Below are positions 37,651 to 41,414 of a stretch of DNA of 64,000 bases, in pieces. Each line of letters opens with the position of its first letter. The first letter of the stretch is position 1. Made by a program: the position numbers and the translations under genes. Below the pieces are notes generated by a model. It was given only the letters and a program-made list of their open reading frames with translations. It was not told where the DNA came from and ran no database searches. Source of the stretch: Hydrocarboniphaga daqingensis (GTDB lineage Bacteria; Pseudomonadota; Gammaproteobacteria; Nevskiales; Nevskiaceae); NCBI RefSeq assembly GCF_900129825.1, contig NZ_FQWZ01000002.1:186001-250000 (forward strand). Reading direction: 5' to 3'.

Positions 37651-40461
37651 GTGACCGCCCCCACCACGCACCCCTTGGTGCTGATCGATGGATCGAGCTG
37701 GCTGTTCCGCGCGTTTCACGCGCTGCCGCCGCTGAGCAATTCGCGCGGCGAGCCGACCGGCGCCGTCTACGGCATGGCCAACATGCTCAAGCGGCTGCAG
37801 CGTGAATATCAGCCGCAGCGGATCTGCGTCGTGTTCGATCCCAAGGGGCCGACGTTCCGCAACGAGCTGTACGACCAGTACAAGGCCAATCGCACTGAAA
37901 CGCCGCCCGAACTGTCGATGCAGTACGGCGATGTGCTGGCGCTGATCAAGGGGCTGGGCCTGCCGATGATCACCGTAGCCGGCGTTGAGGCCGACGATGT
38001 GATCGGCACGCTGGCCTTGGCCGGTCGCCAGCAAGGCTTGCACGTGCTGTTGGTCACCGGCGACAAGGACATGGCGCAGCTGGTCGACGAGCAGACGCAC
38101 ATGCTCGACACGATGAAAAACCAGCGCATCGACCGCCAGGGCGTCATCGACAAGTTCGGCGTGCCGCCGGAACGGATCGTCGACTACCTGGCACTGGTTG
38201 GCGACTCGTCCGACAACATTCCCGGCGTGCCCGGCTGCGGGCCCAAGACGGCCGCGAAATGGATCGCCGAGTTCGGCTCGGTCGACGACATCATCCGCCG
38301 CGCCGATGAAGTCAAAGGCAAGATCGGCGAAAAGCTGCGCGCCGCGCTGCCGATCCTGCCGCTGGCGTATCAGCTGGCGACGATCCGCTGCGACGTGCCG
38401 CTGCCGCTGTCGATCGACGAACTGGTGCCCGGTGCGCGCGACGATGCGGCGCTGATCGCGCTGTTCCGCAAGCTCGAATTCCATCGCTGGCGCGAAGAAT
38501 TGGAAGGCGTGGCCGCGACGCCGTCCGCTGACCTGTCCATCACCGCGCAGTCCGACGCGCCCGAAGCCGCTGCTTTTGCGGCATCGGGCACCAACGAGAT
38601 CGCCGACGTCACGGTGGCTTCGCCCGCCACGCAGGTCGAGATCGTGATGGATGCCGACTCACTCGACCGGCTCGTCGATGAGCTGACGCAAGCCGAGCTG
38701 ATCTGCTTCGACACCGAAACCGACAGCCTCGATGCCAACCAGGCCGGCTTGGTGGGCCTGGCGTTCGCAACGCGCAGCGGCACCGGCTGGTACGTGCCGC
38801 TGGCGCACAATTATCTGGGCGCGCCCGACCAGTTGCCGATGGACCTGGTCATTACGCGGCTCAAGCCGCTGCTCGAAGACCCGCAGCGGCCCAAGTTGGC
38901 GCAGCACGGCAAGTACGACATCAACGTGCTGGCGCGACACGGTATCGACGTCGCGGGCCTGGCCTACGACACGATGCTCGAAAGCTACGTGCTCGATGCG
39001 GCCGGCAACCGCCACGACATGGACACGATGGCCGAGAAGTATCTGAACCATCGCACGATCCATTTCGAAGACGTGGCGGGCAAAGGCAAGGGCCAGATCA
39101 CGTTCAACCAAGTGTCGATCGACAAGGCCGCGCCCTACTCGGCCGAAGACGCCGATATCACGCTGCGGCTGCACCAGACGCTGTATCCGCGACTGGCACA
39201 AGTCGAGCCGCTGGAGCGCGTGTTCCGCACGATCGAGATGCCGCTGGTGCCGGTGCTGGCGACGATCGAGCGCAACGGTGTTCATGTCGACGTGCCGCTG
39301 CTACGGCGCATCAGCGTCGAGTTGGCCGGGCGCATGGACGAGCTGCAAAAGCAGGCCTTCGTGCTGGCCGAAACCGAGTTCAATCTCGGCTCGCCCAAGC
39401 AGCTGCAAGTGCTGCTGTACGACAAGTTCAAGCTGCCGGTGCTGGCCAAGACCCCCAAGGGCGACCCGTCGACCGCCGAAGAAACGCTGGAAGAACTGGC
39501 CGCGCAGCACCCGCTGCCGAGGCTGATCCTCGACTGGCGCGCGATGCAGAAACTGCGATCGACCTACGCCGAGCAGCTGCCGGCGGCGGTCAACCCGCGC
39601 ACGCAGCGTATCCACACCAGCTACCACCAGGCGGTCGCGGCGACCGGGCGTCTGTCGTCGTCCGACCCCAACCTGCAGAACATTCCGGTACGGACCGCCG
39701 AAGGCCGCCGCATCCGCCAGGCCTTCGTCGCCGAGCCCGGCAATGCGCTGCTGTCGATCGACTATTCGCAGATCGAGCTGCGGCTGATGGCGCACTTTTC
39801 CGGCGACGAGCGTCTGCAGCAGGCGTTCCGCAGCGGCCTGGACGTGCACCAGGCCACCGCGGCCGAGGTGTTCGGCCTGCCGCTGGACCAAGTCGGTAGC
39901 GACCAGCGCCGCGCCGCCAAGGCGATCAATTTCGGCTTGATCTACGGTATGTCGGCGTTTGGTCTGGCGCGTCAGCTGGGCATCGGCCGCAATGAAGCCG
40001 CCGACTACATCGACCGGTTCTTCGGCCGCTATCCCGGCGTCAAACGCTTCATGGACGGCACGCGCGAATCCGCGCGCGTCCAGGGCTACGTCGAAACGCT
40101 GTTCGGCCGGCGCCTGTACCTGCCCAACATCAACGCGCGCAATCAGGGCTTGCGTCAGTACGCCGAACGCACCGCGATCAACGCGCCGCTGCAAGGCACG
40201 GCTGCCGATCTGATCAAGACCACAATGATCGACCTGCACCACTGGCTGGCCTCGGCCGCGCCGGCGCTGCGGATGATCATGCAGGTGCACGACGAACTGG
40301 TGTTCGAAGGGCCCGAGGCGCTGATCCGTGACATGGCGCCGGCGATCGCCGACCGCATGTGCCGCGCGGCGCCGCTGGCCGTGCCGCTGGTGGCCGACTT
40401 CGGCGTGGCCCGCGACTGGGATCAAGCCCACCAGGCGATCGGGCACGCGCGCTCGGCCTGA
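37651..40461 (+). CDS. polA: DNA polymerase I
   Basis: 936-residue repair and Okazaki-fragment polymerase. The 5'-3' nuclease spans about 1-290 (VLIDGSSWLFRAFHALPPL, VTGDKDMAQLVD, GDSSDNIPGVPGCGPKTA). The 3'-5' exonuclease is apparently active, since the metal ligands in CFDTETDSLD (~residue 354) are intact. The polymerase domain has SIDYSQIELRLMAHF (~702), the O helix RRAAKAINFGLIYGMSAFG and MQVHDELVFEG (~878). The start is GTG, 37 bases after lysA, with no clear ribosome binding site. Confidence 0.96.
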   Translation: MTAPTTHPLVLIDGSSWLFRAFHALPPLSNSRGEPTGAVYGMANMLKRLQREYQPQRICVVFDPKGPTFRNELYDQYKANRTETPPELSMQYGDVLALIKGLGLPMITVAGVEADDVIGTLALAGRQQGLHVLLVTGDKDMAQLVDEQTHMLDTMKNQRIDRQGVIDKFGVPPERIVDYLALVGDSSDNIPGVPGCGPKTAAKWIAEFGSVDDIIRRADEVKGKIGEKLRAALPILPLAYQLATIRCDVPLPLSIDELVPGARDDAALIALFRKLEFHRWREELEGVAATPSADLSITAQSDAPEAAAFAASGTNEIADVTVASPATQVEIVMDADSLDRLVDELTQAELICFDTETDSLDANQAGLVGLAFATRSGTGWYVPLAHNYLGAPDQLPMDLVITRLKPLLEDPQRPKLAQHGKYDINVLARHGIDVAGLAYDTMLESYVLDAAGNRHDMDTMAEKYLNHRTIHFEDVAGKGKGQITFNQVSIDKAAPYSAEDADITLRLHQTLYPRLAQVEPLERVFRTIEMPLVPVLATIERNGVHVDVPLLRRISVELAGRMDELQKQAFVLAETEFNLGSPKQLQVLLYDKFKLPVLAKTPKGDPSTAEETLEELAAQHPLPRLILDWRAMQKLRSTYAEQLPAAVNPRTQRIHTSYHQAVAATGRLSSSDPNLQNIPVRTAEGRRIRQAFVAEPGNALLSIDYSQIELRLMAHFSGDERLQQAFRSGLDVHQATAAEVFGLPLDQVGSDQRRAAKAINFGLIYGMSAFGLARQLGIGRNEAADYIDRFFGRYPGVKRFMDGTRESARVQGYVETLFGRRLYLPNINARNQGLRQYAERTAINAPLQGTAADLIKTTMIDLHHWLASAAPALRMIMQVHDELVFEGPEALIRDMAPAIADRMCRAAPLAVPLVADFGVARDWDQAHQAIGHARSA

Positions 40462-40539
40462 GCGCGGCCGGGCTGCTGCCGCTGGTCGCCCAGAACGCAC
40501 CGTCTAGATGGTGCCCAAGCTGGGGTGCTTCAGCGATTA

Positions 40540-40757
40540 TCTTTGTATATCAATGGCTTGATGCGCCGGGCCAGCCCGTGCGGGCAACCGGGCGCGGTGC
40601 TGCGGCGAACTTATCGGGCGGTGCCGACTCCAAGACTGCGAGCGTGGTTCTCTCCCTTATCACGCTCCCCGCCTCACTCCCTGGGCGGGTCCGGCCTCCC
40701 CCAAGCCGGAACCAGTTGCCCCATGGACCACCCCCCGGGTCCATGGGGCTTTTTCTT
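40540..40757 (+). ncRNA. Candidate trans-acting small RNA in the polA-engB spacer
   Basis: The spacer after polA carries a chain of stem-loops ending in an intrinsic terminator. A nested helix GCGCC(GG)...(CC)GGCGC spans 40563-40595. A pyrimidine-rich run follows (CTCTCCC, CTCCCC, CACTCCC). The possible hairpin CCCGCC/GGCGGG (40668-40689) has loop tcactccctg, and GGTCCGGC/GCCGGA-ACC (40688-40713) has loop ctcccccaa. CU-rich loops complementary to ribosome binding sites are typical of Hfq-dependent RNAs. The polA-engB spacer is where Spot 42 (enterics) and ErsA (Pseudomonas) are encoded. The 5' end is unknown; TATAT/TATC elements at 40538-40551 are only weak promoter candidates. A long polA 3' UTR is the alternative. 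Confidence 0.55.
40719..40757 (+). terminator. Rho-independent terminator of the sRNA candidate / polA
   Basis: Perfect 11-base arms CCCCATGGACC (40719-40729) and GGTCCATGGGG (40738-40748) around an 8-base loop, then C and TTTTTCTT. This is one of the strongest terminators in the window and is directional (rightward). Confidence 0.92.
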
Positions 40758-40793
40758 GGGCGCGGCTTTTTCTGCGGTGGTGTTACGCGGCCT

Positions 40794-41414
40794 TCAGGCC
40801 ACCAGCTCGACGCCGGCCTCCGACGCGAGCAACTCGGTCAGCTTGGCGCGCGCCTCGTCCAGACCCTGGTGGCTGCTCGACGAGAACAGCTGCACCGACG
40901 CCGAACTGCCCATGTCCTTGAGCCCCTTGCGCGTGTTCAGCAGCGTCGTCTTCGACGCGCCGTAGCCGAGCTTGTCGGCCTTGGTCAGCAGAATGTGGCA
41001 GTTGCGCCGCGCGGTGACGGCCCAGGCCAGCATCTGCTTGTCGTAGTCGGTCAGCGGATGCCGGCAGTCCATGATCAGAAACAAGCCGCGCAGATTGGTC
41101 CGCTGCTCGACGTAGCCGCCGACCAGCCGGCCCCAACTCTTACGCATCGGCTCGGGCACGGCCGCATAACCGTAGCCGGGCAAGTCGGCCAAGCGCGCGC
41201 TGCTGGCCAGCGAAAACAGGTTGATCAGCTGCGTGCGGCCCGGCGTCTTCGACACGCGGGCCAAGCCGTGGCGGCCGCAGATCGCGTTGAGCGCGCTCGA
41301 CTTCCCGGCGTTGGAGCGGCCCGCGAAGGCGACTTCCGGCGCGTCGTCAGCGGGCAGCTGGGTCAATTGGGCGCAGGACAGCAGAAACTGCGCCTGGGAA
41401 AAGGGATTCTGCAT
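40794..41414 (-). CDS. engB: Ribosome biogenesis GTPase EngB (YihA/YsxC)
   Basis: 206-residue small GTPase needed for 50S subunit assembly. The P-loop is [14 protein letters not shown], the switch region is [13 protein letters not shown]3 is DLPGYGYA (typical of EngB), and G4 is TKADKLG. It is convergent with polA and divergent from cytochrome c4 across a 112-base promoter region, as in Pseudomonas and E. coli. Confidence 0.96.

Follow-up and report, generated by a model that had tools for sequence, protein, structure and literature searches.

A small RNA gene between polA and engB

Does the spacer between polA and engB in Hydrocarboniphaga daqingensis hold a small regulatory RNA (sRNA) gene of its own, and what would such an RNA do? 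The question arose in a stretch of 64,000 nucleotides (nt) (contig NZ_FQWZ01000002.1, positions 186,001 to 250,000; hereafter the window, with positions counted from its first letter), in which a sequence-only reading had placed a structured RNA with CU-rich loops at 40540-40757. Our analysis found that the sRNA gene is real, but that its limits and anatomy are other than those first described. We read the unit in the spacer (40462-40793) as a regulatory sRNA gene whose independent transcription is predicted. The predicted transcript runs from 40640 to 40757 on the forward strand (about 118 nt, with a start inferred to within a few nt) and begins 178 nt past the polA stop codon. It lies between both genes, as expected of the positional counterpart of ErsA that had been suggested. 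Its minimum free energy (MFE) was -62.6 kcal/mol (z = -5.99), and none of 200 shuffled sequences was equally stable, which bears out the claim of a structured RNA ending in a perfect terminator.

The transcript is predicted to fold into four hairpins in series, with the loops UCUCUCCCUU, CACUCCCU, CUCCCCCAA, and ACCCCCCG, each C-rich, and no long single-stranded region. Hairpin 1 (40640-40667; 9 bp, loop UCUCUCCCUU), which the sequence-only reading had overlooked, is supported by fold prediction and by covariation in helices 1 and 2 of the alignment described below. Hairpin 2 (40668-40689; 7 bp) carries the loop that varies least in the family, CACUCCCU, and hairpin 3 (40690-40710; 6 bp, loop CUCCCCCAA) comes from fold prediction. 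Hairpin 4 (40718-40757) is the intrinsic terminator, in which 40718-40729 pairs with 40738-40749, followed by the U tract TTTTTCTT. The perfect terminator stood, with a stem of 12 bp instead of the 11 bp first given, and the C-richness of its loop is an added correction.

Other parts of the first description changed. The 3' end of the interval was retained, while its 5' limit moved about 100 nt inward. A nested 5' helix had been counted as part of the RNA; it was rejected, because 40540-40606 is no more stably folded than its shuffles (z = +0.51, with 137 of 200 equally stable) and is poorly conserved, with 29 to 32 of 67 positions directly upstream of the promoter matching in three congeners versus 93 to 100 of 115 positions within the RNA. 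Hairpins 2 and 3 had been described as mutually competing. Both exist, but their stems lie end to end and meet at 40689/40690. The alternative pairing, as we interpret it, joins GG at 40688-40689 with CC at 40712-40713, and the three congeners lack the AACC found at 40710-40713. Because the MFE and centroid structures of the predicted transcript also agree, a conformational switch was rejected. The four CTCCC elements of the spacer do occur (40652, 40665, 40677, and 40696), but the one at 40665 sits in stems and not in a loop.

Conservation of the RNA in Nevskiales

At the level of sequence, comparison with relatives established where the gene begins and ends, that its four hairpins are conserved and show compensatory changes, that the loops are C-rich, that the promoter is conserved, and that the gene is linked to polA and has further copies in the own genome. 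The same architecture was seen in many of the spacers of relatives. A covariance model (R1) was built from 21 sequences, all of the window's family, among them the window sequence and two other copies from its own genome. R1 matched the window at 40634-40755 with 99.2 bits, a score for one of its own building sequences. Across the order Nevskiales, to which Hydrocarboniphaga (Nevskiaceae, Gammaproteobacteria) belongs, it matched 60 of 61 related genomes and all 21 genera; the single miss was a genome of 79% completeness, in which EngB was likewise not found. Among 122 matches in the relatives, 117 scored at least 41 bits (hereafter strong matches) and five scored below 37 bits.

The structure was examined in an alignment of 133 matches from 93 chosen sources (E up to 1e-4), which takes in two sX13 matches and one match cut at a contig end. 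Base pairing was kept in 96.2% of 3,672 cells, compared with at most 47.4% in slid controls, in an alignment that was fitted to the model and hence leans towards it. All 29 base pairs showed changes on both sides. The conservation of hairpins and loops with compensatory changes, which the sequence-only reading had proposed as a check, was therefore strongly confirmed. Loop 2 contained CTCCC in 129 of the 133 homologues (shuffle rate, 0.02), and CCCC was present in loop 3 in 123 (0.09) and in the terminator loop in 115 (0.05). Loop 1 contained TCCC in 56 (0.06), so it is C-rich in part of the family only; in two families of the order (f5 and f6), hairpin 1 has a GCAA-like loop, as in sX13. The proposal of an sRNA with CU-rich loops suited to pairing with ribosome-binding sites is supported.

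A sigma-E-like promoter at the 5' end

Where transcription would begin had been left unknown by the sequence-only reading, and a long polA 3' untranslated region (UTR) had been considered. The start proved predictable. A -35 element, GAACTT (40607-40612, forward strand; identical at all six positions in three congeners), is followed after 16 nt by a -10 element, TCCAA (40629-40633; homologue consensus, TCT(A/G)A). This putative promoter, GAACTT-N16-TCCAA (40607-40633), would set the RNA start near 40639-40641.

The promoter pattern GAAC-N17-19-TCTNN/TCNNA was searched upstream of the 116 usable strong matches; one further match of 54.8 bits was excluded, its upstream sequence being N. The pattern preceded 96 of the 116, whereas shuffled sequences gave a mean of 0.91 and a maximum of 4, and none of the five matches below 37 bits had it. 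In other upstream windows, it was found in 44 of 1,558, a count that will include promoters of tandem copies. The placement is also regular: the GAAC-TC spacing was 18 nt in 84 of the 96 promoters, and the -10 element ended 0 to 2 nt ahead of the model start in 86. The consensus over the 96 promoters, (G)GAACTT-N15-(G)TCT(A/G)A, fits the sigma-E consensus. A sigma-70 promoter for the sRNA was rejected, as a consensus scan of 40300-41100 returned none.

The own genome has six matches to TIGR02939, one of which (301 bits) exceeds the cut-off and is RpoE. It is probably RpoE itself that reads the sRNA promoter. The sigma factor was assigned by likeness to the sigma-E consensus, as the motif is neither enriched genome-wide nor found before rpoE (details below).

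Distribution across Gammaproteobacteria

The wider class was sampled with 369 genomes, searched with R1 under strict filters and an E limit of 0.001; the lowest score among the matches was 25.8 bits. Matches were found in 93 genomes, representing 76 of 272 genera. Four of these genomes belong to the window's order and one match is a clear sX13 locus; the best match was inspected in each of the other 88, in sets of 27 and 61. Flanks matching polA, engB, or both were present in 76 of the 88 (25 of 27 and 51 of 61), and neither gene was in view in 10 of the 61. The promoter pattern lay ahead of 57 of the 88 matches, comprising 22 of 27 (shuffles, 0.26) and 35 of 61 (shuffles, 0.62). Among the 61, it accompanied 12 of 21 matches of at least 41 bits, 10 of 11 between 37 and 41 bits, and 13 of 29 below 37 bits. 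Class matches below 37 bits had initially been taken as doubtful, because the five matches of that strength among the relatives had no promoter, a judgment overturned by these counts. By comparison, the Rfam sX13 model reached its cut-off in three of the 369 genomes and matched 15 at E up to 0.001.

Some promoters outside the order have a different form. Three matches (L285, L288, and L290) have TATAAC or TATAAG at -10 and no GAACTT, and the clear sX13 loci (L156 to L158) have GAACC at the -35 place and TATAAC or TTATAG in the -10 region. It looks, from these sequences, as if promoters had repeatedly shifted from the sigma-E type in the direction of the housekeeping type. In one genome (G152), the match (L146) lies between engB and polA and reads from the engB side towards polA, the reverse of the usual orientation.

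Gene neighborhood and additional copies

Upstream of the sRNA on the same strand, polA (DNA polymerase I; 37651-40461) is a 936-aa open frame, named from the sequence-only reading and its appearance. Downstream and convergent, engB (ribosome biogenesis GTPase; 40794-41414, reverse strand) is a 206-aa frame whose identity comes from the same reading; relatives of it are present in 60 of the 61 related genomes, and its three matches in named genomes are all from Hydrocarboniphaga (91, 82, and 82% identity). In 53 of 60 genomes, at least one copy has a polA relative no more than 1.5 kb upstream. For 31 of these 53, engB was not seen downstream, but in some of the 31 only about 100 nt of it fell within the examined stretch. 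In four genomes (G007, G014, G025, and G031), engB lies at least 39 kb from the RNA on the same contig, and polA lies 88 to 187 nt upstream of a copy. Because the linkage to polA persists where engB is distant, the RNA travels with polA and not with engB, like sX13. Seven genomes had no polA in view: engB is directly downstream of the copy in G012, copies lie within stretches adjoining engB in G044, G050, G051, G054, and G056, and the copy in G023 is 1.6 kb from engB.

Many genomes of the order carry more than one copy. At 41 bits or more, 35 genomes had a single copy, 6 had two, 10 had three, 6 had four, 2 had five, and 1 had six, and the extra copies often stand in tandem behind polA. Rows of four to six copies near polA or engB were observed in G047 (L049 and L119), G056 (L055), G055 (L054 and L117), and G041 (L053 and L118). 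The copies within these arrays differ in sequence, and many have their own sigma-E-like promoter.

The own genome holds four R1 matches, three of which lack polA in their flanks. Two of the three, at 278833-278952 (L031) and 361740-361858 (L033) of contig C5, have a sigma-E-like promoter. The remaining one, at 570100-570219 of the same contig (L103; 47.7 bits), has no such promoter and may be a decayed copy.

Proposed function and alternative explanations

We propose that the RNA is a sigma-E-driven relative of sX13 that pairs through its C-rich loops with G-rich ribosome-binding sites under envelope stress, a reading to which we give a probability of roughly 0.7. Under envelope stress, an RpoE-type extracytoplasmic function (ECF) sigma factor would read GAACTT-N16-TCCAA, and transcription would yield a strongly structured RNA of about 118 nt, ended by its own terminator. 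This RNA would present C-rich sequence in four hairpin loops and act in trans. By pairing with G-rich Shine-Dalgarno regions, the loops would keep the mRNAs concerned from being translated; these mRNAs plausibly encode outer-membrane proteins and other proteins of the envelope. We infer this pairing and the repression at ribosome-binding sites because sX13 acts via C-rich loops and G-rich motifs; envelope targets and Hfq independence would be expected of the window RNA.

Candidate targets were sought in four congeneric genomes, with both strands summed, by comparing each loop-complementary motif followed by N and ATG with the reversed pattern. For loop 2, AGGGAGTG-N-ATG occurred at 37 sites versus 24 reversed; for loop 3, TTGGGGGA-N-ATG occurred at 26 versus 5; and the control motif AGGGAGCA occurred at 28 versus 13. 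The loci examined (30 of 37, 26 of 26, and 28 of 28, respectively) gave 28, 26, and 28 start sites, two overlapping loop-2 duplicates having been dropped and one such pair retained in the control. Open frames of at least 60 aa were present at 20, 18, and 20 of these sites, and outer-membrane Pfam families, sorted by hand, accounted for 5 of 20, 5 of 18, and 3 of 20. In both the own genome (L263) and G002 (L270), TTGGGGGA stands just ahead of the start codon of an outer-membrane efflux protein gene (Pfam OEP). This gene is a candidate target, the motif complementing part of loop 3.

Several observations weigh against the proposed reading. Twenty of the 116 strong matches were off the promoter pattern, although by eye most have a near variant or a motif shifted into the modelled start, and the copy of 47.7 bits in the own genome is without such a promoter. 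Outside the order, 31 of the 88 matches lack the pattern, with a TATAA-like -10 in L285, L288, and L290. In four Hydrocarboniphaga genomes, GAACTT-N16-17-TCNAA was not enriched (31 sites versus 37 for the reversed pattern), and the four TCTAA forms of it were all promoters of this RNA itself. GAACTT-N15-17-TCTAA had no site in the own genome, and the genome-wide counts did not bear out the motif as a marker of a wider sigma-E regulon. Two patterns found no sigma-E-like promoter in the 1.5 kb upstream of rpoE (L067; contig C2, 587591-588157), and autoregulation of rpoE through this motif is not evident. A strong RpoE, present in 90 of 93 R1-positive class genomes versus 177 of 276 R1-negative ones (Fisher, 1e-11), speaks for the reading, but genome size and kinship confound this association. 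Outer-membrane families made up 10 of 38 genes whose start regions are complementary to a loop versus 3 of 20 genes with the control motif.

Much of this would suit the same sRNA with a promoter recognized by a different ECF sigma factor, or by several holoenzymes, in which case it would not be an envelope-stress sRNA. Besides the missing enrichment and the missing motif upstream of rpoE, the own genome has six TIGR02939 matches, one above the cut-off, and in some homologues outside the order the -10 is TATAA-like. We consider this unlikely, as the consensus of the 96 promoters agrees with the sigma-E consensus and as ErsA, in the same spacer, is described as dependent on sigma-22, a sigma-E homologue (PMC7565897).

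A processed 3' UTR of the polA mRNA, or merely a polA terminator with no promoter of its own, would explain why the hairpins stand on the polA strand and why polA is no more than 1.5 kb away in 53 of 60 genomes. Such an origin is very improbable, because the promoter is conserved at the RNA 5' end and two own-genome copies distant from polA also carry it. In addition, the stretch from polA to the promoter is poorly conserved within the genus, and many tandem copies carry their own promoters. Slightly less probable still is a sponge, in which the C-rich loops would bind an RNA-binding protein rather than pair with mRNAs. Four C-rich loops per RNA and several copies per genome would fit titration, but GGA is the motif of CsrA/RsmA sponges, and the loops do not show it. 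Moreover, sX13 is described as working on G-rich target motifs, the mutation of which abolishes its effect (PMC3771888).

The paper on sX13 asks whether further polA loci encode sRNAs (PMC3771888). For 60 of the 61 genomes of the order, and for many genomes of the class (93 of 369, with 76 of the 88 inspected matches adjoining polA, engB, or both), the present evidence says yes. Regulators of this kind have to date been reported from a few pathogens and may be much more widespread, and the shared promoter would tie the family to envelope stress. Tentatively, and at somewhat less than even odds, all of these RNAs could form one old sigma-E-driven family with C-rich loops, anchored downstream of polA across much of Gammaproteobacteria. 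sX13 would then be a branch whose promoter moved off sigma-E, and ErsA may be another branch; the family would replace MicA and RybB as the RNA arm of the envelope stress response in many non-enteric lineages, with up to six copies in some. If true, sX13 and ErsA, studied separately in pathogens, would be brought under one question, with a covariance model, nonpathogenic hosts, and clear testable predictions on offer. The arrays of up to six copies would be a natural case of sRNA amplification.

Comparison with known sRNAs

No Rfam family reached its gathering score anywhere in the window, and assignment to sX13, anti-hemB, 6C, or ar14 was rejected, all four scoring below theirs. The best Rfam match of the window RNA was anti-hemB of Burkholderia (RF02837), with 45.3 bits (E = 1.8e-9) against a gathering score of 49.5. 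The hairpin with loop 2 is very similar in the two RNAs, and the match does not include hairpin 1. In biofilms of B. cenocepacia, anti-hemB is reported as one of the candidate sRNAs with strong expression (PMC5688073). Spot 42 (spf) of enterics, which is likewise placed beside polA and described as Hfq dependent (PMC3771888), was absent among the eight Rfam matches of the window RNA up to E = 10.

The sequence-only reading had stated that no such RNA was described in this lineage. In the titles and abstract openings surveyed, with subscription journals mostly outside, we found no report of a polA-linked sRNA of Nevskiales or of a class-wide family; on the other hand, the polA-linked sX13 of Xanthomonadaceae, with its C-rich loops, had been overlooked.

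MicA and RybB are sigma-E-dependent sRNAs that repress outer-membrane protein synthesis, the role that we propose here and that is also described for VrrA. The likeness to this type is one of proposed role; the loops of the window RNA are C-rich and structured.

sX13 is described as an RNA of 115 nt downstream of polA, with stable hairpins and C-rich loops, whose action needs these loops and G-rich target motifs but not Hfq, and its gene is stated in the same paper to be confined to Xanthomonadaceae (PMC3771888). The window RNA shares the position downstream of polA and the stable hairpins with C-rich loops, and its terminator comes last. It scored 24.5 bits with the sX13 model (RF02232), whose gathering score is 50. 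R1, for which only sequences of the window's family were used, found two of three clear sX13 loci, weakly (33.3 and 29.3 bits). In some other families of the order, hairpin 1 of the homologues looks like the first hairpin of sX13 (ACAGGCGCAACGCCTGT). The C-rich loops number three in sX13, which also has an unstructured 5' region, and four in the window RNA, and the -10 region of sX13 is not sigma-E-like in two of three loci and weakly so in one.

ErsA of Pseudomonas aeruginosa is described as a 132-nt RNA (PMC5819304) in the polA-engB intergenic region (PMC8575079) that is sigma-22 dependent (PMC7565897) and represses algC by pairing at its ribosome-binding site (PMC6321483). Hfq is reported as needed for some of its targets (PMC8575079, PMC6321483) and not for amrZ (PMC5819304). 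The window RNA likewise lies in the polA-engB spacer, and the conserved promoter-like sequence before it may be a sigma-E promoter. Compared by description, ErsA has three stem-loops and pairs through a U-rich unstructured region (PMC8575079), in contrast to the window RNA, which has no long single-stranded region. Altogether, the window RNA is sX13-like in build and place and ErsA-like in place and probable control.
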